Assembly (NCBI RefSeq): GCF_028823635.1 | Contig: NZ_JAPEHU010000004.1 | Span: 1 to 64,000, forward strand | DNA length: 64,000 nt | Direction of reading: 5' to 3' | Source: Demequina sp. B12 | Lineage (GTDB): Bacteria > Actinomycetota > Actinomycetes > Actinomycetales > Demequinaceae | In this document: in pieces, positions 15,317 through 43,602 of the stretch | How the letters are laid out: each line of letters starts with the position of its first letter | Numbering within the stretch: position 1 is the first letter of the stretch | Made by a program: the position numbers and the translations under genes | Notes under the pieces: generated by a model | The model's database searches: none | Told to the model about the DNA's origin: nothing | What the model saw: only the letters and a program-made list of their open reading frames with translations

Positions 15317-15480
15317 CCAGTCCGAGGTCGACGAGAACTTGTCCTTCCTGTTGTCCCAGTGGCACAGGTCGACTTCGACCTTGCACTTGCTGCGGTCGTA
15401 GTCGTCGTTGTCGTCATCGTCGTCCGTGGCGGAAGGTGGTTGCTGACTGGTCGACGTCGACGTTGTCGTTGATCAGTTCA
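14641..15480 (-). repeat. 369-bp coding tandem repeat, two near-identical copies plus a third partial copy
   Basis: The copies 14641-15009 and 15010-15378 differ at a single base in the Asp-coding run. A third copy starts at 15379 and continues to about 15480 before diverging. A clearly related but diverged copy precedes them at about 14392-14640. The unit is 123 codons, so copy-number change keeps the frame. Copy three lacks 5 nt (GCCGC) after CATCGTCGTC at about 15424, which breaks the frame. Confidence 0.93.
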
Positions 15481-16748
15481 CACACGTCCTCCGGTGGCTG
15501 ACACCCGCTGTCTAGGATCGCCTGTCCACCGTCTTCCAAGTTGTAACCGGCGAAGTTGTACAGGACTCCTCCGCCTGCGTCGTGAACAGTGAACGCTGGG
15601 ATGATGTCGTCGATGTGGACGCCCTTTTGCGAGCCGTGACCATTCCCAGAGGTTTCGTCGTCGAACTCGATTGGGTCGAGGTTGTCGCCGCCGGTTTGGA
15701 GCTTGTTGCCGATCGCGTGCCACGAGATCGTGATTTCCACATACTCCTTAGCTCCGTTGTTTGCGTGGCAGATCGTGACTTTGCCGGTGGCTTCACCGCA
15801 GGGCTTGTCGCCTGCGACGGGTCGGGGGTTGTCCTTGTACTCGTCGTTGGCTTGTTCTTCCGTGACACTGACGACGGTCCACTTGCCCTGAACCTTCTTG
15901 CAGATGTCGACGTATGTCGGCTCTTCGCATCCGTTCTCGTCGTCACCGCCGTAGTAGAAATACCACTGGCCAGAGGCGACTGTCAGTGCGTCGTCTTCCC
16001 ATGAGTCTCCGCCATTGTGGGTGAGGATCCCGTCCTCGATCACTGCGTCGATCGCTTCACGAGTTCCGAGGTACTTGTCTACCTGATACCAGGTGCATTC
16101 CTCGATCTTGTCCCTGAGGCGGCGATCGGTAGCCTCACCTTTGCCGACGAGTGTCTGGTTGCCGGGGTTGTCGTTGCAGGAGTAGGTGCCGGCGTTCTGG
16201 CCGTAAACACCCGCTGTCGTCGCATTGAACTTGTCGCACTCGCCGTTGATCTTCCAGGTGTACCACTCGTGGTAAACACGGACACGCTCGCTGCTCTCGT
16301 CGTCTGTGCTTTCAGGGGCGAGCGACTTGGCGCTCGGGGCTTCGGGGCTCTTTTCTTCGGTAGCGGGAGGCTCTTCGCTTTCGGTGCTGTCTTCCGTGGC
16401 TGAGTCCTCGGCAGGAGGAGCGCGGTCTTCCTCGGTCGACTCGTCGCTACCAGTCCCGTCCTCTGTGCTTTCGGCGGGTGCCTCTTCTTCCGTACCGGCG
16501 TCATCGCCAGTATCTGTGGACTCTTCAGAGGTGGCAGGAGGCTGTTCAGTGCTGCCACCTCCGCCGTCATCGCCGCCTCCACCGTCATCGGTGGGTGTCG
16601 CTGACGGATCAGCGGTGGCTTCTTTATGGAGTGCTTGGAACACCTTCAGCCCTGTTCCAAGATCTGCCGCGTTGGCGGGAATGGCCCACCCCACGATTGC
16701 TAGCGCTGTCGCAGACAATACTGCTGCGATCTTTACCCTCAGCTTCAT
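15414..16748 (-). CDS. Secreted multidomain surface protein, N-terminal part (ends at a frameshift)
   Basis: This 444-aa frame starts at ATG 16748 (MKLRVKIAAVLSATALAIVG, a Sec signal peptide ending PANA). Next comes a roughly 110-residue Glu/Ser/Thr/Pro stalk, then a module shared with the paralogue at 17058 (W..NGECDKFNA..., CTWYQVDK, QWYFYYGG), a Trp/Cys module, and the first CH...H.DDIIPAF...GC domain. It enters the first tandem repeat (INDNVDVDQSATTFRHG) and stops at once in GRR* because of a 5-nt deletion. It is either a truncated, secreted product or one gene broken by an assembly error. Upstream are three candidate regulatory elements. Confidence 0.78.
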   Translation of the reverse strand: MKLRVKIAAVLSATALAIVGWAIPANAADLGTGLKVFQALHKEATADPSATPTDDGGGGDDGGGGSTEQPPATSEESTDTGDDAGTEEEAPAESTEDGTGSDESTEEDRAPPAEDSATEDSTESEEPPATEEKSPEAPSAKSLAPESTDDESSERVRVYHEWYTWKINGECDKFNATTAGVYGQNAGTYSCNDNPGNQTLVGKGEATDRRLRDKIEECTWYQVDKYLGTREAIDAVIEDGILTHNGGDSWEDDALTVASGQWYFYYGGDDENGCEEPTYVDICKKVQGKWTVVSVTEEQANDEYKDNPRPVAGDKPCGEATGKVTICHANNGAKEYVEITISWHAIGNKLQTGGDNLDPIEFDDETSGNGHGSQKGVHIDDIIPAFTVHDAGGGVLYNFAGYNLEDGGQAILDSGCQPPEDVCELINDNVDVDQSATTFRHGRR

Positions 16749-16825
16749 TATTCTCTTGCCTCCCCGTCGAGGCTGGGTGTCCCCCAAATGGCACCCCAGG
16801 TCACCTCAACATGCCTTCAACGCTA

Positions 16826-16908
16826 GTGAGATTTCTCACATGCGCAACGTGAGCATGTGACGGAAGTGACGCATGTGACAGCAAGTGGCTCGTGTGGCAA
16901 AAATCACA
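16826..16908. promoter_or_regulatory. Regulatory region of the large surface protein: CRP-like palindromes and TGTGAC 9-bp repeats
   Basis: GTGA-GATTTC-TCAC lies at 16826-16839. [TA]GTGAC direct repeats occur at 16856, 16865 and 16874, exactly 9 bp apart. A second CRP-like site TGTGG-CAAAAA-TCACA lies at 16893-16908. All lie upstream of the start at 16748. Confidence 0.6.
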
Positions 16909-16982
16909 CGATTATTTCCACAATCGTGACCTTAGTCCGTGGTAGCGACACTAAAGCGTTACTCAGCCTGCCCGGGAAACAG

Positions 16983-17016
16983 TTCGGGCCCCACTGCCGT
17001 AGCAGTGGGGCCCGAA
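16983..17016 (-). terminator. Terminator of the second surface protein gene
   Basis: TTCGGGCCCCACTGC (16983-16997) pairs perfectly with 17002-17016 around a 4-nt loop. On the minus strand it is followed by CTGTTTCCC, and it lies 41 bp past the stop at 17058. Confidence 0.8.
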
Positions 17017-17057
17017 GGTGCCGGAGTGCTCATTGAGGTGTGATGAGCACCCGCGTA

Positions 17058-18335
17058 TTACCCGGTGTAGGTCACGGTGCCTCGCACAGGGGTGGCGGCA
17101 GGTGCGGCTCCAGTGCTGGTGACGGCGCCGGCACTGAGCACGCCGCTGGCGGTCACGATGGGGTCCTCGTCCTCTGACGCGTTACCGCTGTCTTCCGCAG
17201 GAGCCTCAGGCTGAGGCGATTCCTCGGCCGGGGGCTCTTCCTCCGCGGGAGGTTCTTCACTGGGGGGCTCTTCCTCAGCAGGGGGCTCTTCGCCCGCTGG
17301 CGGTGCGGGAGGGGTCTGGTCGTCCGCGCAACTGCGGTTGGTGTCGTATGCCGTCCACATCGTGACGGCGTCTGCAGGGAACTGGTAGCCCGGCTGGGGG
17401 AATGCCTCGATGACGTACTGGCCGCCGTAGACAGCGGAGAGGGCCCAGTCGATTCCTTCGGCTTCGTCGTCGTAGGTCCACGCGCCGTCCTCGGCTTCGC
17501 AGTCTTCGACCCACACGGGCGTGGGCACCACGACGGTTTCGAGGCAGTCCGCACCGTTGTAGTCCGCTCCGGACTTCGCGGTGTCCTTGCCGCTGGCGAT
17601 GAGGTCGTCTCCACCCCAGATGATCTTTGCTTTGACGTCCTTGCGTTCGGTCTCGACCACGGTTTGACCGTCGGCGGTTGCGGTGTCAGTGAGCACGCGC
17701 TTCCAAGAGCCGCCCTTCTTATAGAAGAGGGTGAACTCCACGTCGCGGGTGCTGGTGTTGGTGACGGTCCACGTGTTGGTGTCGTCGGGCTCGCATGCGG
17801 GCACGTAAGAGAGCGACAGGTCGATCTCGGCAGGCTCGCCGGAGGGGCCGCCGCAGTTGCTGCCACCGGTGTAGTGGAAGTACCACTCCTTGGTGAGGCC
17901 CCAGTCTTCGCCGTGGTCCAGCTGGTTGTCGGCCACGACGGCATTGATCTTGCTCGTCTTGCCGACCATCTTGTCGACCTGGTACCACGTGCACTCTTGG
18001 AGGCCGTCGACCTTGTCGTGAGAGTTCTTGCCTACCAACGTCTGGGGCCACATCGTGGTGGCGGGGGAGTCGTTGCAGGCCGTGGATCCGTAGACGTCCC
18101 AATTGACGTGGTCGGTGGCTTTCCCTGTGGTCCACGCATCATTGCCGCCGTCGGCGTCAAACTTGGGGCATCCGGGCGCTGGGATTTCCCACGTGACCCA
18201 CTGGGTGGTGGTGCCGGACGACTGGTCGTTGTCGCCTCCCTTGGATCCGCCGGCGTGAGCCGCAGGTGCTGCGAGTCCGACCACGGCGAGGGCGATGGCG
18301 CTTGCCAGCGCGATCGCTCGTCTGCGAAGTTTCAT
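17058..18335 (-). CDS. Secreted surface protein, paralogue of the large repeat protein
   Basis: This 425-aa protein starts at ATG 18335 behind GGAGGAATCA, with the signal peptide MKLRRRAIALASAIALAVVG ending AHA. The N-terminal module (VTWEIPAPGCPKFDADGG, CTWYQVDK, KEWYFHYTGG) is shared with the protein at 15414-16748. A central Ig-like domain (WTVTNTSTRDVEFTLFYKKG) follows. Next is a Pro/Glu wall-spanning stalk (PPAEEEPPSEEP). The last residues, ATPVRGTVTYTG, match the C terminus of its larger paralogue; there is no LPxTG or membrane anchor. The role is unknown, perhaps adhesion or a surface coat. Confidence 0.85.
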   Translation of the reverse strand: MKLRRRAIALASAIALAVVGLAAPAAHAGGSKGGDNDQSSGTTTQWVTWEIPAPGCPKFDADGGNDAWTTGKATDHVNWDVYGSTACNDSPATTMWPQTLVGKNSHDKVDGLQECTWYQVDKMVGKTSKINAVVADNQLDHGEDWGLTKEWYFHYTGGSNCGGPSGEPAEIDLSLSYVPACEPDDTNTWTVTNTSTRDVEFTLFYKKGGSWKRVLTDTATADGQTVVETERKDVKAKIIWGGDDLIASGKDTAKSGADYNGADCLETVVVPTPVWVEDCEAEDGAWTYDDEAEGIDWALSAVYGGQYVIEAFPQPGYQFPADAVTMWTAYDTNRSCADDQTPPAPPAGEEPPAEEEPPSEEPPAEEEPPAEESPQPEAPAEDSGNASEDEDPIVTASGVLSAGAVTSTGAAPAATPVRGTVTYTG

Positions 18336-18404
18336 TGATTCCTCCATGCCGTGGCTGGGTGTCCGTGTGACTCCCCCTCAGCGCCAGGGCTGGACCAGAC
18401 AACA

Positions 18405-22502: not shown

Positions 22503-23051
22503 TCAGCGCGGCTCAGTCATGAGCCACCGTGCGATGGTCTGGCAGTCCTCATCGATCATGGAATAGGCCTTCGCGTAGGCGGCCGCATTCTTGCGGTACG
22601 GATCTGGAATGTCGCGAATCCCCGCAGCCGTCAGATGGCCCCGGAGAGGCTGTAATGCCGCCGGCAATGCGCTGATCCGGGCCTTCACATCGGCCCCCTC
22701 AAGCGGAACTCCTAGGCGTGCCGCCGTCGCCAACTCTCCCAAGGCAAACGTCTTCTTCATCGCCGTTGGCGCCATCTTGACGACCTCCGTGCGGTGCGCC
22801 ACCGTCATCGTCGCAATGACCTCGGCTTCCCTGACCGTGGCGGGCGTCAACTGGTGAGCGCGGTGGCAGCGTGCGTCGAAGCCGCTGGCATCAAGGTGAG
22901 CAAGCATCGGCTCTGGGACTTGCCCGTCTGGCACGGCATGGGTGCCTGCGCTCGCCGGACGCACCACATCCCCCAGGTACGCTCGTAGCAGGACCGCAGC
23001 CGCAGGCGACCGGCAGATGTTGCCCGTGCATACGGTCAGGATCTTGGTCAC
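22503..23051 (-). CDS. Low-molecular-weight protein-tyrosine phosphatase (Wzb/PtpA-like)
   Basis: This 182-aa protein starts at GTG 23051 (VTKILTVCTGNICRS) behind ACGGAG. The catalytic P-loop CTGNICRS and the general-acid motif IPDPYRKN are both intact. LMW-PTPs of this type remove phosphate from the tyrosine cluster of BY-kinases that control capsule assembly; a BY-kinase is encoded at 38334. The insertion between the P-loop and the DP motif (KMAPTAMKKTFALGELATAA) is somewhat long, as in actinobacterial members. It is divergent from the DUF4012 gene, with 38 bp between starts. Confidence 0.9.
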   Translation of the reverse strand: MTKILTVCTGNICRSPAAAVLLRAYLGDVVRPASAGTHAVPDGQVPEPMLAHLDASGFDARCHRAHQLTPATVREAEVIATMTVAHRTEVVKMAPTAMKKTFALGELATAARLGVPLEGADVKARISALPAALQPLRGHLTAAGIRDIPDPYRKNAAAYAKAYSMIDEDCQTIARWLMTEPR

Positions 23052-23089
23052 AGTGACTCCGTCTCTCGTCGCAAAGGAGACCCCTCCGA

Positions 23090-24907
23090 ATGTCCGGACA
23101 CCAGGGAAGTCCCACGGTACCGTCGCCGCCCCCAGGCGCACAGGAGTCCACCCCTCCAACGAACAAGCGCCGCCGTGTGTGGCCGTGGGTGACCATGGGG
23201 TTCGTCACACTCGTGCTGGTGTGGGTGGGGCTCCTGGGGTGGGATGCCTGGAAACTCCAAGGCGCGGCCACCGACCTCGAAGCACACGCTTCCGCCGCGC
23301 AAGAAGCGGTTCGCAACAGAGACGCCGATGCGTTGAGCGCCCACGTTCTTGACGTCCAGCACGCTGCCGACGACTTCGCTGCCCACGCCTCCGGGCCGCA
23401 CTGGGCAGTGGCGTCCTGGATTCCATGGGTCAAAGATCAGACGGTGCCGGTGCAGCAAGCGGGCGCATCCGTGGGGGCGCTCGCTGACGGTGCGCTCGAA
23501 CCGCTGGCCCAGATCGATGACCTGTCCGTCCTGGAAGTCCCGCCCATCGACAACGGCCGGATCGACCCATACGTGCTAGAGCCCTACCGGGAGACGTTGG
23601 CGGGCGCGGCAACCACCATCGAGACGGAGCTGGCGGCCCTGGACGGTCTAGACACCTCCCGCACCATCGGCTTGGTCGCCGACCAAGTCACACGCCTCAC
23701 GAGCGAGATGGAGCAGGTGGGCTACCTGATCCAAGGCGCCCACGTGGCCGCGGAACTGCTGCCCGCAATGCTCGGTGCCGACGGCGAGCGAACCTACGCA
23801 GTCATGGTGCAGAACAATGCCGAGCCCCGAACCTCCGGCGGCATCCCCGGCGCCATCCTGGAGATGTCCATCGACGACGGACTGATGACGTTGGTGCAGT
23901 ACGAGTCTGCTGCCGCCATGGCTACCCCGCAGGATGCTGTCGCGGAACTAACGGAGGACGAACAGCGCATCTTCACCGAACGTATGGCCTGGTATCCGCA
24001 GGACGTGAACTTCACTCCCGAGTTCCCCCGCGCGGCCGAGTTGATGAGCGCGTTTTGGGAACGCGAGTTCGGCGACGCGCCCGATGGTGTGCTGTCCGTG
24101 GACCCGGTGGCGCTGCAATACATGCTGGCCGGCATGGAGCCAACTGATGTTGCGGGCGTCACCATTACAGGCGACAACGTGGCTCAGATCATGCTCAACC
24201 AGGTGTATTTCGAGTTCGAGGACCCCGACCAGTCGGATGCGTTTTTCGCGCTCGCCGCCAGCACCTTGTTTGGAGACCTGTTGTCGTCCCAGAACTCGGC
24301 ACTGGCGCCTGGGCTTGAGCGGGCTGCTGCCGAAGGGCGTCTGGCGCTGTGGTCCGCAGACGCCGACGAACAAGCGCTGCTTGCGACCACAGGAATCGAC
24401 GGCGACTTCATGAAGCGTGACGATGCCCTGGGTGTGTTCCTCAATGACGGTTCGGGGTCGAAGATCGGCTACTACATCGACGATGAAGTGGAGACCGTGG
24501 TGGAACAGTGCTCCAACGGGGATGTGGTGCGGGCCTCGGTGAGCATCGAGTTGAGACACGGACTCGATGCAGAATCGAGTTCCGATCTTCCCTGGTATAT
24601 CTCGGGAGGCGGGGTGTACGTCCCAGAGTCGGAGTTCCACGCCAATGTCCTGGTCTACCCGCCGGTGGGCATGGGGATCGACGGCGTCACTGTCGATGGC
24701 GAAACCGCCACCTTCCATCCTGAACATCACCATGGGCGAGCGTTGGGCGCATCGCGCGTGGTGCTGTCACCGGGGGATTCGACTGTCGTGACTTACGAGC
24801 TGTCCTCCACTGCATGGGGTGTTGCCGTGCCCCCTACTGTCATCACCCCTGGTCCCACGAGTGGGATGTTCGTCACACAGGAGCTTGTCAGCGCGCCGGA
24901 TTGTTAG
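23090..24907 (+). CDS. DUF4012 domain cell-envelope protein
   Basis: The 605-aa protein has a short cytoplasmic Lys/Arg segment, one N-terminal membrane helix (about residues 28-48), an Ala/Glu-rich helical stalk, and a large extracytoplasmic DUF4012 region (VMVQNNAEPRTSGGIPGA at about 240). Proteins of this family are regularly found in actinobacterial and Gram-positive polysaccharide loci, but their biochemical role is not established. Its position next to a phosphatase and just upstream of the exopolysaccharide genes supports a role in capsule assembly or anchoring. Confidence 0.85.
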   Translation: MSGHQGSPTVPSPPPGAQESTPPTNKRRRVWPWVTMGFVTLVLVWVGLLGWDAWKLQGAATDLEAHASAAQEAVRNRDADALSAHVLDVQHAADDFAAHASGPHWAVASWIPWVKDQTVPVQQAGASVGALADGALEPLAQIDDLSVLEVPPIDNGRIDPYVLEPYRETLAGAATTIETELAALDGLDTSRTIGLVADQVTRLTSEMEQVGYLIQGAHVAAELLPAMLGADGERTYAVMVQNNAEPRTSGGIPGAILEMSIDDGLMTLVQYESAAAMATPQDAVAELTEDEQRIFTERMAWYPQDVNFTPEFPRAAELMSAFWEREFGDAPDGVLSVDPVALQYMLAGMEPTDVAGVTITGDNVAQIMLNQVYFEFEDPDQSDAFFALAASTLFGDLLSSQNSALAPGLERAAAEGRLALWSADADEQALLATTGIDGDFMKRDDALGVFLNDGSGSKIGYYIDDEVETVVEQCSNGDVVRASVSIELRHGLDAESSSDLPWYISGGGVYVPESEFHANVLVYPPVGMGIDGVTVDGETATFHPEHHHGRALGASRVVLSPGDSTVVTYELSSTAWGVAVPPTVITPGPTSGMFVTQELVSAPDC

Positions 24908-24963: not shown

Positions 24964-25506
24964 ATGATCCGTCGTATTGCAGCTCTTGGTGCCGCCGTGG
25001 CATTGACTCTGGGTGTCCCCGTAGCCGCGGTTGCTGACGAGTACCCCGCTCCCGAAGCAGACCTCGAGTGCTCGACGCAGCAGACGCCTGTCGTCACCGA
25101 CTTCACCTGCACGGTGTTCGGCGAAGAGGGCGACGACGCACAGATCCAGACAGAGTTTGATGGTGCCGATGCCACGATCGCTGGCGCGCAGGTCTCCGAG
25201 GTCAAAACCATCGTGGATGGTAAGGCCACCTGGACGGTGCACGCCCCTGACGTCACCGGCCCCATCACGATTGTGGGCTACACCGCTGAGGTTGCTATCG
25301 ACACCACGGCGACCGTGATGGTGATTGACGCTGGCGTTGACAGCGGCGCAGAAGACGGAACCGGGTCGGAGGCGAGCAACAACCTGCCCGCGACCGGTGC
25401 GTCCAACAGTGCCCCGCTGATCGTCGGATCCGTGGTGCTGGTTGCGGCAGGAACGTTCGTCGTGATCATCGCGGTGCGCCGCCGCCGGCGCGAACAAGAG
25501 GCCTGA
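24964..25506 (+). CDS. LPATG-anchored secreted protein (sortase substrate)
   Basis: This 180-aa protein has a signal peptide (MIRRIAALGAAVALTLGVPVAAVA), a single Ig-like domain with a likely disulfide (ECSTQQTP...FTCTVFG) and a textbook sortase signal: LPATG at about residues 145-149, a hydrophobic helix and the tail RRRRREQEA. The sorting motif predicts covalent attachment to peptidoglycan, yet no sortase gene lies in this window. A TAGAAT -10-like hexamer sits about 55 bp upstream. It lies 17 nt before the priming transferase gene, so the two may be co-transcribed. Confidence 0.9.
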   Translation: MIRRIAALGAAVALTLGVPVAAVADEYPAPEADLECSTQQTPVVTDFTCTVFGEEGDDAQIQTEFDGADATIAGAQVSEVKTIVDGKATWTVHAPDVTGPITIVGYTAEVAIDTTATVMVIDAGVDSGAEDGTGSEASNNLPATGASNSAPLIVGSVVLVAAGTFVVIIAVRRRRREQEA

Positions 25507-25523: not shown

Positions 25524-27005
25524 GTGACTGACGCAGGCAACACCCCCGGGGCTGCGTCGACGGAGCGCATGGGCGGGGGGCACGGCTGGGCCCGCAAGTA
25601 CCGCCGCCGCCTACTAGTGACGGACGTCATCGTCATCGCTGCCATCATGCTTGTGGCTCACCTGGTGCGTTTTGGTCCAGATTTCTTTGAGCCAGTCGCG
25701 GGCCCGTCCGCGCCCGCCTACTGGTTTGTCACCTTGGCGATCTCTGTGCTGTGGGCAGTCCAGATGGTGGGAGCCAAAGCGTACGAGGTCCGCGTGCTGG
25801 GCCATGGTCCACAAGAGTTTCAACGCATTCTGCGTGCTGCCTTCCGGACCTTCGCTGCTATCGCGATTGTGGGCTTTCTGACGCAGTGGGAAATCAGTCG
25901 CGGGTACCTGCTGTTCGCGCTACCACTAGGAACTCTCGCCTTGATGGGTGGACGGGCCTTGTGGCGTCTCAAGGTCCACCACCAGCGGGACCGTGGCTAT
26001 CTGCTGGCGCAGGCGATCGTGGTTGGCCCGCTCAAGCAGTCTGAAGAAATGATTCGACGCCTCAGGCGCGCGCGACGTGCGGGATACAACGTCATCGGCG
26101 TGTGTCTGCCTCCCACCAGCCGGGGTGAACTTGCCGACGATGTTGCTGACGTGCCGGTTCTCGGTTCGATCCTGGATGCTCCGGAGATTGCCAAACAGGT
26201 GGACGCGGAGTTTCTGATCTTGTCGGGCACGGACGAGATGTCGACCACGGAAGCGCGCCGGTTGGGGTGGGCGCTCGAAGGCAGCGGTGTGGGGCTCATC
26301 ATCGCGCCCGCGATGGCCGAGGTCACGGGTCCCCGTGTCGTTGTCAGTCCCGTCGAGGGTTTGCCGCTGCTTCACGTGGATGAGCCTCAGTTCCGTGGCG
26401 GCAAGTTTGTCCTGAAGTACACCGTGGACCGCGTGTGGGGGGTCTTGGGACTGATCCTTGCTGCAGTGCCGATGCTTGTGATCGCCATAGCGGTGAAGGC
26501 CACGAGTCCGGGACCGGTGTTCTTTAGACAAACCAGGGTGGGTCTCAACCACCGTGAGTTCACCATGCTGAAGTTCCGTTCCATGTACACGGATGCGGAC
26601 CAGCGCGCGGCCGAGCTGGAACGCCGTGAGGACGATCCTGGGAACGAAGTGCTGTTCAAGATGCGTGACGATCCGCGGGTGACCTCTGTGGGGAGGTTCC
26701 TGCGGCGTTTCTCGCTTGATGAGCTGCCCCAACTGATCAACGTGGTTCGGGGAGACATGGCGATCGTGGGGCCGCGTCCGCCTCTGCCGAGTGAGGTGGA
26801 GCAGTGGGGCCACGATGTGGCGCGGCGTCAGTTGGTGAAGCCGGGACTTACTGGTCTGTGGCAGGTGTCGGGACGGTCTGACCTGGACTGGGAGCAGAGT
26901 GTCCGGCTTGACCTGTACTACGCGGAGAACTGGTCGATCGGTGGGGACACCGTGATTGTGTTGCGTACCGTCTGGGCCGTGATCGCAGGCAAGGGCGCGT
27001 ACTAG
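25524..27005 (+). CDS. Exopolysaccharide polyprenyl glycosylphosphotransferase (WbaP/CpsE-like priming enzyme)
   Basis: The 493-aa protein has four or five N-terminal membrane helices, a Rossmann-like CoA-binding segment (VVGPLKQSEEMIRRLRRARR), one further helix and the C-terminal bacterial sugar-transferase domain. The catalytic signatures KFRSMYTDA, LRRFSLDELPQL, PRPPLPSEV and PGLTGLWQVSGRS are all present. It transfers a sugar-1-phosphate to undecaprenyl phosphate, the first step of repeat-unit synthesis. This is the first enzyme of the polysaccharide locus and the strongest evidence for a Wzx/Wzy-type pathway here. Confidence 0.94.
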   Translation: MTDAGNTPGAASTERMGGGHGWARKYRRRLLVTDVIVIAAIMLVAHLVRFGPDFFEPVAGPSAPAYWFVTLAISVLWAVQMVGAKAYEVRVLGHGPQEFQRILRAAFRTFAAIAIVGFLTQWEISRGYLLFALPLGTLALMGGRALWRLKVHHQRDRGYLLAQAIVVGPLKQSEEMIRRLRRARRAGYNVIGVCLPPTSRGELADDVADVPVLGSILDAPEIAKQVDAEFLILSGTDEMSTTEARRLGWALEGSGVGLIIAPAMAEVTGPRVVVSPVEGLPLLHVDEPQFRGGKFVLKYTVDRVWGVLGLILAAVPMLVIAIAVKATSPGPVFFRQTRVGLNHREFTMLKFRSMYTDADQRAAELERREDDPGNEVLFKMRDDPRVTSVGRFLRRFSLDELPQLINVVRGDMAIVGPRPPLPSEVEQWGHDVARRQLVKPGLTGLWQVSGRSDLDWEQSVRLDLYYAENWSIGGDTVIVLRTVWAVIAGKGAY

Positions 27006-35834: not shown

Positions 35835-37037
35835 CTAACGCGTGATGCGGGTCCGACGAATGCTGGCAAGGAGGAGTGCTGCTTGGACTGCGTAGGAGGC
35901 GCCGAGCGCTACAGCTGCTGCGGGTGCGCCGCCTAGTGCGGTTCCTGCGGCTACGCCGATCACGCATGTCATCGATCCCACCAACGCCGCGGTTGCAACT
36001 GCGCGCGGGTGTCCGGCGCCCTGGAGGATCGCGCCACACAACTGTGAACAGGTGGCCAGAGGCAGTCCCAGCATCGCGATTTGGATGGTGAGGACTGCGG
36101 GTTCATACTGGGCCCCCAGCAGCCATGGCACCACCCAGGGCGTGACGAGTGCGGCGGCGCCGTAGCCCGCCACGCTTACCGCTGAGACGAGCCACATGAT
36201 GCGCACTGCCCGGCGTGGTGAGGTGCCCTCAGGACGCGCGACGGCGGGCATGAGTACGCCGGCCAGCGCGTCGGGCAGGAGGCGTAGGGGGCCGATGAGT
36301 CGGCTGGTGAGTCCGTAGTAGGCCCCTGCGGTCGCGCCACCAACGGTGGATGCGATGGCAGCGTCAAGGTTGCGAACTTGGGCGGAGAGGGTGTTCACCC
36401 AGAAGGGGCGCCCAGAAACCACGGCTACGGTCAGCGACTCTCGGGTGGGACGGGCTCGGGGGCTGAGGTGAGTGCCGGAGAGATGATGTGCGACTCCAAG
36501 ACCGACGGAGACTGCCACGAGGTCGGCGAGGACATATGCCGCCATGCTGCCCGCGCTGAACAGAATGGCGATGCCGAAGCCAGCAAACGTTGTCACTCGG
36601 CGCAGGAGGTACACCCGTGCAGCCTGGTCCGCACGGCCATGCGCCGTCGACACCCCCAACCGCACAATCATGTTCTTTTCCGCCCCTGCCATTACGGCAA
36701 GCACCACCGCCCACGCGGGAACAGCGGTCGTTGCGGCCAGGACAGCCATGACGGCGCCGTAGACGACAGCGATGAGGACTGAACTGAGATCAGCCGCGGT
36801 CGCCACGGCACGCGCGAGTGTGGGGTTGGTGGTCGTGGCTGACGTGCGAATCAGCAAGCCGCCAAGTCCAAAGTCGCCCGCAGCTTGCACCACCATCGTG
36901 ATGCCCAACAGCGAAGTGAGTAGCGCCATCTCCGCCAAGCTCGAGTGGCGTGCCACGAGCGCGATAGTGACAGCTTGCACTCCGGCAGTCAGCACCCGGC
37001 CGGTGCTGAGCCAGGCAAACTGCCACCTTAGACGCAT
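35835..37037 (-). CDS. Wzx-like flippase (MATE/MOP superfamily polysaccharide transporter)
   Basis: This 400-aa protein has about 12 predicted membrane helices and the N-terminal pattern of polysaccharide transporters (FAWLSTGRVLTAGVQAVTIALVARHSS, in pieces; GDFGLGGLLIR). With the polymerase next to it on the same strand, it would move lipid-linked repeat units across the membrane. Its ATG is only 15 bp from the divergent nucleotidyltransferase start at 37053. Confidence 0.85.
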   Translation of the reverse strand: MRLRWQFAWLSTGRVLTAGVQAVTIALVARHSSLAEMALLTSLLGITMVVQAAGDFGLGGLLIRTSATTTNPTLARAVATAADLSSVLIAVVYGAVMAVLAATTAVPAWAVVLAVMAGAEKNMIVRLGVSTAHGRADQAARVYLLRRVTTFAGFGIAILFSAGSMAAYVLADLVAVSVGLGVAHHLSGTHLSPRARPTRESLTVAVVSGRPFWVNTLSAQVRNLDAAIASTVGGATAGAYYGLTSRLIGPLRLLPDALAGVLMPAVARPEGTSPRRAVRIMWLVSAVSVAGYGAAALVTPWVVPWLLGAQYEPAVLTIQIAMLGLPLATCSQLCGAILQGAGHPRAVATAALVGSMTCVIGVAAGTALGGAPAAAVALGASYAVQAALLLASIRRTRITR

Positions 37038-37052
37038 ACTCGTACACTAGCC

Positions 37053-38018
37053 GTGCAAGTCGGCGGTGCCGCCGACGGAAGGGTGGACTCGCTCGTGTCG
37101 GGACCAGTAGGTGACGCGCTCCCGTTGCGCGCTGCGGTGCCGCTCGCGACTGCGTTAGTGATGCATCGGGCCGAATCCGTGGGCGTGCGTGCCCTCGTCA
37201 TCAAAGGAATCTCCGCAGAAGTCCATGGCCTTCGTCAACCCCGCGTGAGCGCTGACGTTGACGTCTTAGTTGACCCCGCCGGTTACGACACTCTCCTTGA
37301 GTCCCTCGCCCAGGCGGGGTGGGCGCCTCGCCCCATGTATGCGGTGTCGGCCAACCTTGACCCGCATTCGGAGTCATTGATCCATGCACAGTGGCCGTGT
37401 GACATTGACTTGCACCGACGCTTTCCGGGTTTCTTGGAGGATCCTCAGGCGACCTTTGAAGCGCTGTGGGCACTCAGGGAACATGTCGAAGTCGCGGGCC
37501 GTGATGTCTGGATCCCCAACCGTGCCGGAGCCATCCAAGTGGGAGCCTTGCATGCCCTACGCACTGTCGACGCCGGCCCCCGCATGGACACTGAACTCGA
37601 CATGATTGTTGACGTCATCGCGGAGTTGGAGCCTGACGAGCGCGACGCACTGGTTGACTTGGCATTCCAGACGGGAGCGGTAGGCCCGCTGGTGGAGACG
37701 TTCTCGCGCGCGGGGGTAGCGGTCGACGTGCCTGACAGTCCGCAGTTGCGCGCGTGGAATGCGCGCAGACTCGCAGGCCCCGTGTTCGCAGGAAACCTAG
37801 TGTCAGGCATGCGCGGGAAGCCGTGGTCTGAACGCTGCCGTCTGTGGCGGTTGGCTTTGTGGCCCAGCGCTGCGGAGTTGCGGGCTGTGGACCCCGGATT
37901 GGGTGACTCCAGCCGTGCGCTCGTGGCTGCACGGGTCCGTCGGTGGGGCCGTGGGGTGTGGCAGCTTCCGCGTGCGCTCAAGGCGGCGTGGGCGGCACGG
38001 TCAGGGCGTCGTTCATGA
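37053..38018 (+). CDS. Nucleotidyltransferase family protein of the HprK-like/PqqD operon
   Basis: This protein of up to 321 aa (GTG 37053; a GTG near 37095 behind GGAAGGG is an alternative) belongs to the uncharacterised nucleotidyltransferase family. The polymerase-beta-like motif is visible as LVIKGISAEVHG...RVSADVDVLV (D-x-D) with a later DIDLHRRFPG. Related genes are commonly found beside HprK-like kinases and PqqD-like proteins. The substrate, whether protein or small molecule, is unknown. The stop overlaps the next gene (ATGA), so it heads a coupled operon. Confidence 0.83.
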   Translation: MQVGGAADGRVDSLVSGPVGDALPLRAAVPLATALVMHRAESVGVRALVIKGISAEVHGLRQPRVSADVDVLVDPAGYDTLLESLAQAGWAPRPMYAVSANLDPHSESLIHAQWPCDIDLHRRFPGFLEDPQATFEALWALREHVEVAGRDVWIPNRAGAIQVGALHALRTVDAGPRMDTELDMIVDVIAELEPDERDALVDLAFQTGAVGPLVETFSRAGVAVDVPDSPQLRAWNARRLAGPVFAGNLVSGMRGKPWSERCRLWRLALWPSAAELRAVDPGLGDSSRALVAARVRRWGRGVWQLPRALKAAWAARSGRRS

Positions 38019-38284
38019 GTGCCCTGCGCAAGGCTCCGGACCTAGCCGAGGTCTCGCTAGGTGGCGCTGTGTACCTGCTGGCACTGAGCAGGCTCGATGA
38101 TGACCAGACACCGACCGTGTTGGAGGGCAGCGCTCAGGACATCTGGGCCAGAGTTGACGGCGTCCGATCGGTGACGGAGATTGGGGAGTCGTTGCTGACG
38201 GGAAATGCGGACCTTGACGCGAGAATCCGGACCGATGTGCTGGCCTTTGTTGAAGGGCTGCGTCAGCGCGGTTTCCTGGAATAG
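38015..38284 (+). CDS. PqqD-like (RRE-fold) protein 1
   Basis: This 89-aa protein shows the PqqD pattern: LGGAVYLLAL, then LEGSAQDIWARVDGVRSVTEI, and a C-terminal helix VLAFVEGLRQRGFL. PqqD domains bind leader peptides in RiPP pathways (RRE), but PqqD-like proteins also occur in polysaccharide loci with HprK-like kinases. No precursor peptide is obvious next to it. It overlaps the upstream nucleotidyltransferase gene by 4 nt, and the BY-kinase gene follows after 49 nt. Confidence 0.85.
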   Translation: MSALRKAPDLAEVSLGGAVYLLALSRLDDDQTPTVLEGSAQDIWARVDGVRSVTEIGESLLTGNADLDARIRTDVLAFVEGLRQRGFLE

Positions 38285-38333
38285 GCGCACTCTCAAGTAG
38301 CCTGGCAAGTAGCAGGTTGCGATTGGAGTGGCC

Positions 38334-39764
38334 ATGGAACTGAGTGACTTTGGCAAGGTGTTCCGCGCCTATTGGGTCGCGATCGTACTTGCCACGCTGT
38401 TGGGCGGGGCACTCGCATATGGCTACACGCTCACGCAGCCGAAGGTTTACACCGCGAACGCTTCCGCCATCATCACTACAGGTGTCAGTGAGGACATCAA
38501 CCAAGCGCTGATTGGTGACAACTACGCAAAGTCGCGAGTGCAGTCGTACCTCGACATTGGTCAATCGCGAGCTGTGGCGGAGTACGTCATCGACGATTTG
38601 GGGCTGACGTCATCTTCGGATTCGCTTGTGGGCCGGGTGTCAGTCAGCAATCCGGATGACTCTGCTGTTCTTCAAGTCAGTGCGACTGGGGCCTCGCCGG
38701 AAGAAGCGCAAGAGTTGGCCGAGTCGTGGGTGGCGGGGATGAGTCAGGCCGTGGCCATGTTGGAGAACGGCGTGACCGACCCCGCCGATCTTCCAGCAAA
38801 CGACGCGAGCGTGGTGCGTCTGCAGACTTTGGATTCGGCGACACTGCCCGGATCTCCGAGTTCGCCAAACGTCCGCTTTGCCGTGGCGTTGGGACTGGTG
38901 CTGGGATTCGCGGCGGGTGTGACCTACGCCTTGATCCGTGCGGCGCTGGACCGCAGACTGCGCACTCCTGAGTCGGTGACCAAGGAGTTCACGCTGCCGG
39001 TGCTTGGCGCGGTGCCGTTTGATGCGGACATCGCGAAGAACGGCATTGTGAAGGCGAGCCCGGACTTTGCGACGGAGGAGTCGATCCGCGAACTGCGGAC
39101 CAACTTGCAGTTCATGGATGTGGACAATCCGCCGCGCCTCATTGTGGTGACGAGCCCGCTTCCCGGAGACGGCAAGTCCACGATCACCATCAAGCTCGCT
39201 CAGGCGATCTCAGAGTCGGGGCAGAAGGTGATCATCGTGGATGGTGATCTGCGGCGCTCGCGAGTGGTGGACTATTTGGGCTTGGTGAAGGGGGCTGGCC
39301 TCACGGATGTGTTGGTTGGCCGCGCCACGCTCGATGATGTGTTGCAGCCTTACGGCACGTCCGGAGACTTGTGGGTCCTCGGCTCCGGTTCTACGCCGCC
39401 GAACCCGTCTGAGCTGCTGGGGTCAACCCTCATGCAGGACACGTTGCGGAGCCTGGACTCGAGCGCCATCATCCTGATCGACGCCCCGCCTCTGATCCCC
39501 GTCACCGACGCGGCGATCCTGACGGCACGTACCGATGGCGCTTTGGTGGTGGCGCGGGCAGGCAAGACCACCGTTGACATCCTCGATAGGTCGCTCCAGA
39601 GCATCGACAAGGTGAAGGGTCGCGCCCTGGGCGTCATCCTCACCGGGATGTCTCGCAAGGGGCCTGATTCGCACTATTACGGCTACTCCTATGAGTATGC
39701 CGACGCGGGAAAGCCGGGCAGGCCGCGAGTCAAGCGGTCTAAGGCGCCGGGCGCGGGACGGTAG
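38334..39764 (+). CDS. Wzz/BY-kinase (polysaccharide chain-length and tyrosine autokinase)
   Basis: The 476-aa protein starts at ATG 38334 behind GGAG. An N-terminal Wzz domain lies between two membrane helices (about residues 15-35 and 178-198). The cytoplasmic kinase has Walker A (SPLPGDGKSTITIK), A' (KVIIVDGDLRR) and B (ILIDAPP). The Tyr-rich tail HYYGYSYEY at about 450 is the autophosphorylation cluster. Fusion of both halves in one chain is normal for actinobacteria. The enzyme sets chain length and responds to a tyrosine phosphatase, here probably the one at 22503. Confidence 0.93.
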   Translation: MELSDFGKVFRAYWVAIVLATLLGGALAYGYTLTQPKVYTANASAIITTGVSEDINQALIGDNYAKSRVQSYLDIGQSRAVAEYVIDDLGLTSSSDSLVGRVSVSNPDDSAVLQVSATGASPEEAQELAESWVAGMSQAVAMLENGVTDPADLPANDASVVRLQTLDSATLPGSPSSPNVRFAVALGLVLGFAAGVTYALIRAALDRRLRTPESVTKEFTLPVLGAVPFDADIAKNGIVKASPDFATEESIRELRTNLQFMDVDNPPRLIVVTSPLPGDGKSTITIKLAQAISESGQKVIIVDGDLRRSRVVDYLGLVKGAGLTDVLVGRATLDDVLQPYGTSGDLWVLGSGSTPPNPSELLGSTLMQDTLRSLDSSAIILIDAPPLIPVTDAAILTARTDGALVVARAGKTTVDILDRSLQSIDKVKGRALGVILTGMSRKGPDSHYYGYSYEYADAGKPGRPRVKRSKAPGAGR

Positions 39765-39766
39765 CC

Positions 39767-41182
39767 ATGTCCACCGCTGCGCATGCCCCGTTTCGTGTGC
39801 TGATGGTGGGTCGCACGGGTGTGTTCATGGCTCCCGTCGCTGAACGGTTGATGCGACTTCAGCTCGCTGAACGTGCCATTCCCCTGAACGCCATCCGCGT
39901 TGTCAGTGCTGGTGTGGAGGTGTGTGATGGAAAACCCATGGAGGTGCGGAGCGCCGAGGCAATTACGCGTCACGGCGGCAACCCTGATGGCTATGTGGCG
40001 CGCACACTGAACCGCGCGTTGGTTGATCGTGCGGACATGATCATCACTGCCCGTATGGACGTTCACGACGATGTGGTCGAGCAGTTCCCCAGTGCGGAGT
40101 CCCGCACTTTCACCATTTCGGAGATTGGGCATCTCTACAGCGAGGTCGCAGAGATGGCGCCGCTCGCAGAACACCCTGGGTTGTTGAGTCGGAGGCGTTC
40201 TGCTGTGGCCGTGGACCCGGACTTCGACCTTGATGACGAGGCCTACGACGACGAGCAGGAGCGCCGGCTCTTCGAACGCATTGCCTTCGCGTGCGACTGG
40301 CTGGCCGATGTGTGGGCCGCGATCGTCCCCGGAGCCGGTGCGGCATCGGGGACGGGCTCTGCGCGGTCCACGACGGTCGACATCGATGCCTTTGGTGTGG
40401 CGGTGCGGCTGGTGTGTGACGGGGACGATCCTGAGCGCCTAGCGCGGGCGGTGGGTCTGGTGTGGAGCCGGCTGGTCCGCCAGGACCCTCGTGAGCCTGA
40501 GGTCACGGTTCATGTGTCGGTTCTTGACCGCCATGAGGACCGTGTGGGGGCACGTCGTGCGGGGCATCTGGCGTACGCGACGATAGACGAGGCTCTCCAC
40601 CATCTGACGTCGACTGTGACGGTGCGGGCGATTGATGCGCGGGCGGGGCAACTGGTGATGCTGCATGCGGCGGCCGTGGCATTGCCGGATGGGCGTGCGG
40701 TGGGGTTCGTGGCGCCGTCGGGGACTGGCAAGACCACCCTGGCTCGTGTCTTGGGCGCACACTTTGGTTATGTCACGGATGAAACCTTGGCTGTTGACTT
40801 CCGGCAGCGGGTGTTCCCGTACCCCAAGCCGTTGTCGATCATTACGGACCCGGAGTTGGGGATGAAGGAGCAGTGGTCGGCGGACTCGTTGGATCTTCTG
40901 CCTGCTCCTGCGCAGGTCCGGTTGACGCGGTTGGTGTTGTTGGAACGCATCCCTGGCCGGGTGGGGCCGCCGCGGTTTGAAGGCATTCCGTTGCTTCGGG
41001 GCCTCGCAGAGGTTGCGTCTCAGGTGTCGTATTTGCCGCGTCTACCCGGGAAGTTGCATGATCTCGCGGATCTTGCCGAGGCGGTGGGGGGTCTGGTGCG
41101 GCTGACTTACGCCGATGCTGCCGATGTGGTGGGCGTGGTTCCTGCGCTTGTGGCGGGCGAGCAGGGAGGTGGGGGGCGATGA
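39767..41182 (+). CDS. Fusion of an inactive LMW-PTP-like domain with an HprK-like kinase
   Basis: The 471-aa protein has two parts. Residues about 5-140 follow an LMW-PTP from end to end. The P-loop, however, reads VGRTGVFMAPVAERL where an active enzyme has V-C-T-G-N-I-C-R-S-P-M-A-E, so both the nucleophile Cys and the Arg are lost. Residues about 285-460 are an HPr kinase-like ATPase: HAAAVALPDGRAVGFVAPSG-TGKTTLA (Walker A), YVTDETLAVD and FPYPKPLSII. The gene sits 2 nt after the BY-kinase gene and overlaps the second PqqD-like gene by 4 nt. The PTP-like half could bind the BY-kinase tail. The kinase substrate is unknown. Confidence 0.85.
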   Translation: MSTAAHAPFRVLMVGRTGVFMAPVAERLMRLQLAERAIPLNAIRVVSAGVEVCDGKPMEVRSAEAITRHGGNPDGYVARTLNRALVDRADMIITARMDVHDDVVEQFPSAESRTFTISEIGHLYSEVAEMAPLAEHPGLLSRRRSAVAVDPDFDLDDEAYDDEQERRLFERIAFACDWLADVWAAIVPGAGAASGTGSARSTTVDIDAFGVAVRLVCDGDDPERLARAVGLVWSRLVRQDPREPEVTVHVSVLDRHEDRVGARRAGHLAYATIDEALHHLTSTVTVRAIDARAGQLVMLHAAAVALPDGRAVGFVAPSGTGKTTLARVLGAHFGYVTDETLAVDFRQRVFPYPKPLSIITDPELGMKEQWSADSLDLLPAPAQVRLTRLVLLERIPGRVGPPRFEGIPLLRGLAEVASQVSYLPRLPGKLHDLADLAEAVGGLVRLTYADAADVVGVVPALVAGEQGGGGR

Positions 41183-41487
41183 AGCCACCTCCTCCGCAGC
41201 CCCCGTTGTCCTTGCCGGCCGATGCCGTGGTGACGTCGCGGGCTGACGACTTCTTGGAACGGGACGGCGAGATGCTGGTGTTGGCGGGTTCTCATGTGTA
41301 CCTGCTGTCGCCGGTGGCGGCGGAAGCGATGCGTGTGGCGTGGGGTGGGGTGCCCGTTGCAGAGCTTCAGGTGGCGTTGGTGGAAGTTTTTGGTAAGCCC
41401 AGTACGGGCAATATTCATGAGGTGCTGATGGCGATTCTTGCGCCGTTGGTCGACCAGGGGTTGATGGTGCATTCATCCGGTCGATGA
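41179..41487 (+). CDS. PqqD-like (RRE-fold) protein 2
   Basis: This 102-aa protein has a Pro-rich N terminus (MKPPPPQPPLSLP) followed by a PqqD-like domain: VTSRADDFLERDGEMLVL, GSHVYLLSPVAAEAMRVAWGG and a C-terminal LAPLVDQGLMV. It is the second PqqD-like protein of the operon and is translationally coupled to the HprK-like fusion gene (ATGA). Having two different RRE-like proteins suggests two binding partners or a heteromeric complex. Confidence 0.8.
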   Translation: MKPPPPQPPLSLPADAVVTSRADDFLERDGEMLVLAGSHVYLLSPVAAEAMRVAWGGVPVAELQVALVEVFGKPSTGNIHEVLMAILAPLVDQGLMVHSSGR

Positions 41488-41666: not shown

Positions 41667-42272
41667 ATGGCAACCGCACTTGATTTTGATGCGCCTGCGC
41701 CCGCACACGCAGGTGGACTTTCTCGACGCCGTGTTTTGGTGGGAGCGGCCTGGCTGGCCCCCACTATCGTGGCGGCGTCTGCTGCGCCGGCGTTCGCCGC
41801 CTCAGAAGCGCCTTCGCCACAAGGCACGCTGGTGAACAATGTGCGCGGTCATGACCGCAAGAGCTACAGCGTCGATGGCGTGGGGTCTGTCAGGGCTCAA
41901 ACGCTCAGTACATATCTGCAGTACAAGCCGCTCCAGGAAAACCCCCCCGCCGCGAGTCTGGTGGACGTGTGGGTGACGATCGAGGTCAACAACGTCACCA
42001 GTCCGCTGATGTGGGGCATCAACAATGCTGTAGGGATCCCGTCCACCTACGCCTGGCAGGTTCGGGGGACTCCTCAGCTGGTGAATGGCGTGTTTACTGC
42101 CACCTTGGGCTTTGTGGGCGGCACCGTGACGTATCCCATCCCGCCGTGGTCGGGTGGGAACCTTGACAACTTGTGGGTGCGGGTGTCGAGTGCGGCAACT
42201 CGTGTGCGCCTCAATGCGTATGCCATTGATGCGAATGGTGCCACGTTGGTGACGCCCGGGGTGATTGCCTAG
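41667..42272 (+). CDS. Tat-exported small protein 1
   Basis: This 201-aa protein has a twin-arginine signal (SRRRVLVGAAWLAPTIV, cleavage after PAFAA) preceded by a 24-residue n-region. The mature part of about 150 aa looks all-beta (VDVWVTIEVNNV, LGFVGGTVTYPI, LWVRVSSAATRVRL) and has no cysteines. It is the first of three consecutive genes with the same signal pattern RRxVxxG..W..P.IV. The function is unknown. It lies 179 bp after the PqqD-like gene, with its own regulatory site. Confidence 0.85.
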   Translation: MATALDFDAPAPAHAGGLSRRRVLVGAAWLAPTIVAASAAPAFAASEAPSPQGTLVNNVRGHDRKSYSVDGVGSVRAQTLSTYLQYKPLQENPPAASLVDVWVTIEVNNVTSPLMWGINNAVGIPSTYAWQVRGTPQLVNGVFTATLGFVGGTVTYPIPPWSGGNLDNLWVRVSSAATRVRLNAYAIDANGATLVTPGVIA

Positions 42273-42313: not shown

Positions 42314-42403
42314 TCAACATTCCGGGTTAAAATGGACTGACTCAAGCAAGGGGGCGCGGCCTCCTGTGGGGCTGCGCCAACAACTCATGTCAGGGAATGT
42401 TGA
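42314..42403. promoter_or_regulatory. Inverted repeat spanning promoter and start region of Tat-exported protein 2
   Basis: TCAACATTCC (42314-42323) and GGAATGTTGA (42394-42403) are perfect inverted repeats 70 bp apart. One arm abuts a TAAAAT -10-like box (42328-42333) and the other covers the start region. A small hairpin GGCGC/GCGCC lies between them (42353-42357/42374-42378). Confidence 0.4.
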
Positions 42404-42405
42404 CC

Positions 42406-43014
42406 ATGTCTGCCTCGCCGAACGCTTCTTCTTTTCAGGTGTCACGCCGCAACGTCGTTCGCGGCATCGCTTGGGCTACACCCGCGATTGTCTTCGCATC
42501 GGCCGCGCCTGCAGCAGCAGCGTCCCTCACTGGCGGTAGTGGCGTCGAGTTCTTGAGCGCCTCAGCGGTATACGTGGACGCGTTCAGCAACTCCACCTCT
42601 GGCGAGACCATCCACGCGGTGTCCGCCCAGGTCAACATCCAGAATCAGCAGGTCTACCCCGTGGACGCGTCGCCCGTGAACTCCATGGTGCTCACGGTAT
42701 CGATGCCCGTTGGCACGCTGACGGATCCCGCGTGGGGCTTGAACTCGGATCGGCATGAAGGCGTCGACCAAACCGGTTGGAGTCTTCCAGCGGGTGTCAG
42801 TGGGCCCACGATCTCTGGTGGATACGCCCATTTCACTTTCCACTGGACGGGATCACTGGCGGCGTATCAAGGTGATCAGCCCACGGTGTGGGTGCAGGTG
42901 TCGGGCCCTGAAGTCGTGGGCGAGAACGTCTCCGGTAACGTCAGCGCCATTCACGAAAGCGGGGACACCAGCAGTGATGCGGGCCTCGTCGCGGTTTCGC
43001 CCGACAACACCTGA
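42406..43014 (+). CDS. Tat-exported small protein 2
   Basis: This 202-aa protein (ATG 42406; ATG 42397 is possible but lacks spacing for the AGGGA) has the twin-arginine signal SRRNVVRGIAWATPAIV ending AAPAAAA. The mature domain is beta-rich (VSAQVNIQNQQVYPV, MVLTVSMPVGTL, YAHFTFHWTG). Its last third (QPTVWVQVSG) aligns loosely with the LDNLWVRVSS segment of protein 1, which suggests common ancestry. No catalytic residues are evident. Confidence 0.83.
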   Translation: MSASPNASSFQVSRRNVVRGIAWATPAIVFASAAPAAAASLTGGSGVEFLSASAVYVDAFSNSTSGETIHAVSAQVNIQNQQVYPVDASPVNSMVLTVSMPVGTLTDPAWGLNSDRHEGVDQTGWSLPAGVSGPTISGGYAHFTFHWTGSLAAYQGDQPTVWVQVSGPEVVGENVSGNVSAIHESGDTSSDAGLVAVSPDNT

Positions 43015-43116: not shown

Positions 43117-43602
43117 GTGAGTCACGACGAACCGATGCGCATGTCGCGCCGTTCGGTGCTGGGTGCTGCCCTGTGGGCCGCGCCGGCCATCGTGGTGGCG
43201 ACGGGCGTGCCCGCGCGTGCAGCGTCTGGCGACAACGTGTATGTCGACGACGTCCTGATCTTCAACAATGTGACGCTTTACCCGGAGAACAATGGCGCTA
43301 TTGGCGGCAACTTTTCCTACCGTGTGGACTGGACGGATGGCTTCCCCGAAGGTGAACTGGCGCAGTGCACGTGGAATGTCACGGCAACCAAGAATGACGA
43401 CCCTGACGTTTCTCTCTCCGCGGGAGGCACTGAGTACCTCCCCAACGCGGGCACGAGCGCGAACCACGAGTTTGAACTCACTGACGTGCCGCCGGGGGAC
43501 TACACGTTTGTGGTCACGGTGACGGCCACTGTCACGGACCCGGAGACGGGTACCACCTACTACACCACCACCGAGGAAGTGCAGACGGTCACGGTCGTCT
43601 AG
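43117..43602 (+). CDS. Tat-exported small protein 3
   Basis: This 161-aa protein starts at GTG 43117 behind GAGGAGG. The twin-arginine signal is SRRSVLGAALWAAPAIVV ending ARA. The mature part is one predicted immunoglobulin-like beta domain of about 120 aa (NFSYRVDWTDGFPEG, then PPGDYTFVVTVTATVTDPE) with a single Cys. It is convergent with metX (12-nt gap). The function is unknown; export in folded form together with the two preceding proteins suggests a shared surface role. Confidence 0.84.
   Translation: MSHDEPMRMSRRSVLGAALWAAPAIVVATGVPARAASGDNVYVDDVLIFNNVTLYPENNGAIGGNFSYRVDWTDGFPEGELAQCTWNVTATKNDDPDVSLSAGGTEYLPNAGTSANHEFELTDVPPGDYTFVVTVTATVTDPETGTTYYTTTEEVQTVTVV

Follow-up and report, generated by a model that had tools for sequence, protein, structure and literature searches.

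What is the function of an operon that joins a capsule-type tyrosine kinase to genes of a putative modification system? The question is raised by five genes at positions 37053-41487 of a 64,000-nt stretch of Demequina sp. B12 (positions 1 to 64,000 of contig NZ_JAPEHU010000004.1; "the window" below always means this whole stretch). They encode a nucleotidyltransferase, two PqqD-like proteins, a bacterial tyrosine kinase (BY-kinase) and a fusion of a low-molecular-weight (LMW) phosphatase with an HprK-like kinase, and are followed by three genes for proteins exported by twin-arginine translocation (Tat). We think, with a probability of roughly 0.65, that the Tat signal peptide doubles as the leader of a ribosomally synthesized and post-translationally modified peptide (RiPP), and that the operon is a RiPP-type modification machine for Tat-exported proteins. 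The five plus-strand open reading frames (ORFs) of the original prediction are all present, with intergenic gaps of -4, 49, 2 and -4 nt. The two PqqD proteins are read here as RiPP recognition elements (RREs), and Phi denotes a hydrophobic position of the signal motif described below:

37053..38018, plus strand: nucleotidyltransferase, NTP_transf_5 (PF14907) by family match; K51-G52, D68/D70, D119 and H121 are invariant in 19 homologues
38015..38284, plus strand: PqqD1, a discrete RRE with the leader-pocket Asp/Phe of LppB as D74 and F78; predicted binder of the WxxPxPhi motif of the Tat signal
38334..39764, plus strand: BY-kinase of the capsule co-polymerase type, with Wzz/GNVR and Walker kinase parts and a Tyr-rich tail, YYGYSYEY
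39767..41182, plus strand: fusion of an N-terminal, catalytically dead LMW phosphatase (about 39791-40306) and a C-terminal HprK-like kinase (about 40364-41161)
41179..41487, plus strand: PqqD2, a divergent RRE-fold protein that appears dedicated to the HprK-like kinase, with which it shares one gene in other genera

A Tat signal peptide co-occurs with the putative modification enzymes

The proposed substrates are encoded directly downstream:

41667..42272, plus strand: Tat-class protein 1; signal 41718-41810, candidate Ser46 codon 41802-41804
42397..43014, plus strand: Tat-class protein 2; signal 42439-42531, candidate Ser43 codon 42523-42525
43117..43602, plus strand: Tat-class protein 3; signal 43141-43236, candidate Ser37 codon 43225-43227

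The three proteins share a signal peptide, with the consensus SRRxVxxGAAWxxPxI…PAxAxS, that is also found on the Tat proteins beside every homologous Demequina module. In full the signal reads xSRRRVLxGAAWAxPAIxxATAxPAAAAS, and R, R, W and P are invariant in the seed alignments. Despite this conserved signal the mature parts are diverse: the proteins are about 140-600 aa long and carry no recognised family, DUF5122, NHL and RCC1 propellers or Big_1.

A profile of the signal was run over whole genomes, 297 of the order and 396 of the phylum. Within the order the HprK-like kinase was found in 58 genomes, the Tat class in 57 and the nucleotidyltransferase in 51. All three occur together in 51 genomes and none of them in 234; the nucleotidyltransferase never occurs alone, and a single genome (G304) has only the kinase and the Tat class. 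The Fisher p-values for co-occurrence, which ignore phylogeny, range from 1e-45 to 1e-51. Counted by genus, kinase and Tat class are found together in 20 cases, the kinase only in 2, the Tat class only in 0 and neither in 72 (p 1.7e-18). The presence of the components is patchy and in step even inside genera, i.e. in g1, in g6 (G041 has none, G117, G210 and G232 have all) and in g7 (G042 has none, G274 has all). Five HprK-positive genomes of the nucleotidyltransferase test are without the Tat class, and these are also without the nucleotidyltransferase. In the phylum set of 396 genomes only 3 have the Tat class, and all 3 also have the kinase.

The genus Demequina follows the same course. All 18 genomes with the fusion have 2-8 Tat-class signals, almost all of them no more than about 10 kb from the module, and 17 of the 19 genomes without it have no such signal. 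The exceptions are G019, which carries an HprK-PqqD gene, and G022, a Demequina without kinase and without nucleotidyltransferase, where a lone Tat-class protein is found in a siderophore-uptake locus (L099:9780-10260). A supposed decayed HprK gene beside this lone gene turned out to be a siderophore ABC ATPase. Elsewhere in the order the Tat genes lie dispersed along the chromosome, so the link between Tat class and kinase does not come from gene neighbourhood alone. Three g11 genomes (G245, G108 and G046; loci L174, L175 and L103) contain Tat-class proteins with no kinase, nucleotidyltransferase or BY-kinase orthologue detected; these proteins may be either remnants or an unrecognised variant.

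The signal peptide resembles an RRE leader

The hydrophobic (h-) region of the signal contains WxxP-x-[I/V/L], which matches the RRE-binding motif [Y/W]xxPx[LVIAFY] of lasso and LPP leaders (PMC13381572). The conservation of W and P had been recorded before the literature on this motif was consulted for comparison. The Phi position holds I, V or L in 62 of 62 Demequina signals and I, V, A, L or F in 31 of 31 others; this list was pre-filtered for W..P, and in an unfiltered list W is present in 23/26 and P in 26/26 signals. The spacing agrees as well. In LppA the motif residues are Y-16, P-13 and V-11 counted from the cleavage site (PMC13381572), and in the Tat signals they are W-16, P-13 and I/V-11 counted from the predicted cleavage site.

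The last conserved residue is a Ser at the predicted position +2 of the mature protein, and no conservation was found beyond it. Scored with a profile that ends nine residues before this column, the Ser is present in 55/62 Demequina and 29/31 other signals. LPP Ser3, the sole residue phosphorylated by LppK (PMC13381572), is at nearly the same place. Taken together, the sequences suggest that the signal probably is a RiPP leader.

RREs, kinase and nucleotidyltransferase

PqqD1 scores 34.2 bits against PF05402 (cut-off 23.4), matches LppB (9x8z, E 7e-4) and is also related to the lasso B1 proteins TbiB1 and PbaB1. The leader-pocket residues are found in many of its homologues (Asp in 20/32, Phe in 28/32) and both are kept in PqqD1, which by its sequence thus qualifies as a PqqD-type RRE. 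For PqqD2 no family was found by sequence; its AlphaFold2 model has a confident PqqD/RRE fold (pLDDT 92.8), which among stand-alone domains is closest to lasso B1 TbiB1 (Z 8.3) and PqqD (Z 8.0). In other genera no protein accompanies the kinase more constantly than PqqD2, and 19 of 41 kinase genes encode both.

In the fusion protein the LMWPc match reaches 33.1 bits (cut-off 23.2), and structure comparison gives the N-terminal half an LMW-phosphatase fold with Z of about 20. Its nucleophile loop, CX5R[ST], is broken in all 18 Demequina fusions, where the Cys is replaced by Asp in 15, by Ser in one and by Gly in two, one of which is the window protein. As judged from this loop the phosphatase half is catalytically dead. 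Stand-alone LMW phosphatases beside the kinase in other genera have CX5R intact in 23 of 23 cases, and there the kinase occurs without the phosphatase fusion.

The C-terminal half resembles HprK_rel_A below the cut-off (23.5 vs 200 bits), and the HprK profile found chiefly generic P-loop matches among solved structures, which is why the domain was assessed by fold comparison. This comparison shows a PEPCK/HprK fold, with a Z of 15.7 to PEPCK over 264 aa; the GKTT, Y-x-x-DE and PKPLS motifs are conserved, and all invariant HprK-type residues are present. With its P-loop, Asp/Glu pair and fold the kinase half is intact. The nucleotidyltransferase matches PF14907 at 32.9 bits (cut-off 31.2); its profile found no match in a sequence search of solved structures.

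Conservation of the locus

A gene order unique to this strain had been named in advance as one outcome that would refute the original prediction; the order proved not to be unique, and the prediction was not refuted. The fusion was found in 17 further Demequina genomes at 44-52% identity, and in 17 of these 17 loci BY-kinase, fusion and PqqD2 are adjacent and co-directional, far beyond chance expectation. Small Tat-exported proteins adjoin the module in all 17. The nucleotidyltransferase and PqqD1 are near the module in 17 loci as well, usually as a pair, upstream or downstream and sometimes a few kb off. One locus (L037) has a nucleotidyltransferase remnant between BY-kinase and fusion, and its BY-kinase and nucleotidyltransferase frames are broken, possibly by sequence errors. 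In other genera BY-kinase, nucleotidyltransferase and PqqD1 are near the kinase in many loci, not in all. Promoter and terminator scans gave signals no higher than shuffled sequences, and a plasmid search returned a single phosphatase match and nothing else.

Genomes of f11 contain a phosphomannose isomerase gene that overlaps PqqD-like and HprK-like genes in one operon (L156:7971-10746 and L157:8008-10732), with the nucleotidyltransferase opposite this operon. The module also has GDP-mannose enzymes nearby, both in the window and in L032 and L047. Because of these neighbours a mannose-type donor for the nucleotidyltransferase is a reasonable first guess. A MauE/DoxX-like membrane protein family recurs near HprK genes in 11 loci (L058:5000-6157, L061:6612-8069, L146:7697-8740 and others); in L061 its gene directly adjoins a Tat-class gene. 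In Mesorhizobium (L072, L073, L074 and L078) BY-kinase, PqqD-like, HprK-like and nucleotidyltransferase genes occur together, without the Tat class.

BY-kinase and the capsule locus

The BY-kinase has Wzz and AAA_31 domains, Walker A, A' and B motifs and a Tyr cluster, and scores 129.9 bits against TIGR01007 (cut-off 108.05). The locus around it is of the capsule type and also encodes a sugar transferase, glycosyltransferases, Wzx/Wzy-like proteins and GDP-mannose dehydratase and epimerase. The central idea of the original prediction, namely that HprK, PqqD and nucleotidyltransferase form a modification set with a tie to capsule control, stands. The neighbours that bear on it are:

35835..37037, minus strand: Wzx-like flippase, weak match to Polysacc_synt, capsule-locus context
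25524..27005, plus strand: bacterial sugar transferase of the capsule initiating enzyme type, capsule-locus context
22503..23159, minus strand: stand-alone LMW phosphatase with an intact CTGNICRS

From its intact loop, the last of these is likely the active partner of the BY-kinase. Further afield, 24964-25506 (plus strand) encodes a small LPXTG-anchored protein beside the capsule sugar transferase, and a DUF4012 protein (23090-24907, plus strand) is at the border of the capsule locus. The region 11498-18347 (minus strand) contains an ORF of 1272 aa with a marginal GH3_M match only, and then two exported proteins without a Pfam family.

Proposed mechanism and its alternatives

The mechanism that we infer is as follows. 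PqqD1 as the canonical RRE and PqqD2 as the kinase's own RRE would present the precursor in the cytoplasm, where the HprK-like domain would phosphorylate the conserved Ser at mature +2, a site suggested by its position. The nucleotidyltransferase would then extend the phosphate with a further group, perhaps a hexose: in pseudomycoidin an HprK-like kinase and then an NTP-transferase act serially on one Ser, and hexoses are added to the phosphate (PMC8498205). Tat would export the folded, decorated protein, signal peptidase would remove the leader, and the protein would become part of the capsule or envelope, the assembly of which would be under the control of the BY-kinase. The dead LMW-phosphatase domain of the Demequina fusion may serve to dock the kinase on the BY-kinase. 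The role in capsule or envelope is the least certain step. It is a tentative idea, and rather doubtful at present, that an N-terminal Ser phosphoglycan on whole exported proteins is the attachment point between surface proteins and capsule.

There are a few points that weigh against this mechanism. The kinase occurs without Tat class or nucleotidyltransferase in 6 of the 297 genomes, and Tat-class signals occur without either enzyme in 5. The Tat and nucleotidyltransferase profiles were built from genes around HprK, so that members close to these seeds are more readily detected. The W is replaced by L or I in three signals of G194 (L164:2507-6454), with P, Phi and Ser kept. The cleavage site, after the conserved Ala, is predicted by the AxA rule, and to find a Ser close to it could be partly ordinary; a crude control set picked transmembrane helices and was unusable. 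The pocket Asp/Phe is absent from PqqD2, which makes PqqD1 the more probable binder of the leader; PqqD2 would be a kinase-specific variant. Finally, the NTP-transferase of LPP was inactive in a heterologous host (PMC13381572).

One could argue that the operon serves capsule regulation only, i.e. that the dead-phosphatase/HprK and PqqD proteins regulate the BY-kinase while the Tat proteins are co-inherited, capsule-associated neighbours. The BY-kinase is adjacent in all Demequina loci and has an orthologue in 50 of 50 HprK-positive genomes tested, and LMW phosphatases are the family that partners BY-kinases. We regard this explanation as unlikely, however, as in many genera HprK-PqqD2 is away from the BY-kinase and the chromosome-scattered Tat class still tracks HprK, as BY-kinase orthologues without the set are found in 6 of 16 HprK-negative genomes, and as the RRE motif within the signal peptide would be left unexplained. 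The nucleotidyltransferase is within 10 kb of a BY-kinase in 21 of 44 cases. For the same reason, namely that the Tat class tracks HprK-PqqD2 even where the BY-kinase is distant, the BY-kinase was dropped as main substrate; we regard it as a capsule partner linked to the modification set, with orthologues that are also found where the set is absent. From the three candidate substrates of the original prediction the neighbouring Tat-exported proteins were thus retained, with a signal class that tracks the kinase and the nucleotidyltransferase and contains an RRE motif, but the BY-kinase was not.

An equally unlikely possibility is that kinase and nucleotidyltransferase act on another target, either an unannotated small peptide or some component of the capsule, with the Tat class as a parallel client, e.g. 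an attachment partner. LPP and lasso systems do act on short peptides (PMC13381572; PMC8498205) and small precursor ORFs are easy to miss, but the Tat signal is the only conserved leader-like sequence that we found to track the enzymes, and its motif and spacing match those of LPP leaders. It is somewhat less probable still that an RRE recognises the Tat signal and the Ser is mere cleavage-site context, with modification elsewhere or an export checkpoint. The phosphosite is proposed from position only, and Ser near AxA sites is generally not rare; against this, a model that excludes the Ser finds it retained in 84/93 signals as the last conserved residue, and the proven site of LPP is at nearly the same position (PMC13381572). 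It is very improbable that the operon belongs to a cluster for a lasso peptide or another classical RiPP: the set of kinase, NTP-transferase and PqqD is typical of paeninodin-type clusters (PMC8498205), but macrolactam synthetase (C), B2 peptidase and short precursor were not found among the genes scanned around the operon, and the lasso cluster was rejected on the lack of cyclase and B2 among these neighbours.

Comparison with known systems

It is instructive to compare the proposed Tat-protein modification with the LPP systems of Bacillota, where RRE, HprK-like kinase and NTP-transferase are found in capsule loci and which were stated to be restricted to that phylum (PMC13381572, 2026). The similarities are substantial: a discrete RRE, an HprK-like kinase and an NTP transferase in one locus, a position among capsule genes, precursors that are conserved at the N-terminus and vary at the C-terminus, and a [Y/W]xxPx-Phi leader motif at -16/-13/-11 with a Ser just past the cleavage site. 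On the other hand, the leader here is a Tat signal on full-length exported proteins and has W rather than Y, there are two RREs, one of them fused to or paired with the kinase, and the system is found in Actinobacteria and includes a BY-kinase and a pseudo-phosphatase fusion. The LPP consensus YxxPxVLxHQxIxFETxxS is not matched in its HQxIxFET part, which is replaced by the hydrophobic Tat h-region, so the correspondences are limited to Y/WxxPx-Phi, the -1 position and the Ser. Neither a SipW-like signal peptidase nor an MsbA-like transporter is among the window genes scanned at 23-50 kb; an S26 peptidase is near some homologues, e.g. in L061. Because consensus, peptidase and transporter differ in this way and the substrates are full-length Tat proteins, we set the system apart from LPP.

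The paeninodin/pseudomycoidin lasso systems (PMC8498205) are similar in having B1, a PqqD-like RRE, a kinase K of the HprK-like type acting on Ser, an enzyme N adding hexoses and a WxxP leader. They differ in as much as no lasso cyclase or B2 was found here, the substrate is a Tat-exported protein and the Ser is N-terminal, not C-terminal. By analogy, the three enzymes and the leader logic common to both pathways suggest that the Demequina system works like them. An HprK-related kinase with a PqqD-like protein also recalls NCBIfam HPr-rel-A (TIGR04352/TIGR04353), as do the Mesorhizobium loci mentioned above, but membership was rejected on the low score of the fusion, and TIGR04353 was not listed for the window PqqD1. 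The original prediction of an undescribed system therefore has to be narrowed to the Tat-protein version, since the trio of RRE, HprK-like kinase and NTP-transferase is already described for LPP and paeninodin systems, in capsule loci (PMC13381572). In the literature searched, mostly without subscription journals, no description of such a gene set was found.

So far, such sets near capsule genes had been linked only to small peptides without an assigned role. The present analysis puts a name to the substrates, namely a signal-peptide class on diverse exported proteins, predicted down to a single modified Ser, which provides a testable idea on why these sets are found in capsule loci. If the idea is true, RiPP chemistry would extend to full-length exported proteins and one peptide would be both Tat signal and RRE leader. 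On the more doubtful idea of an attachment point given above, proteins would be anchored by an N-terminal phosphoglycan, distinct from sortase, lipoprotein and exosortase anchoring. The genomic behaviour is similar to that of the PEP-CTERM/exosortase couple, where a single processing enzyme is accompanied from genome to genome by a short conserved signal that many otherwise unrelated exported proteins carry; the signal in that couple is a C-terminal tail handled by transpeptidase chemistry, whereas here it is an N-terminal Tat signal and the chemistry would be that of a kinase and a nucleotidyltransferase.

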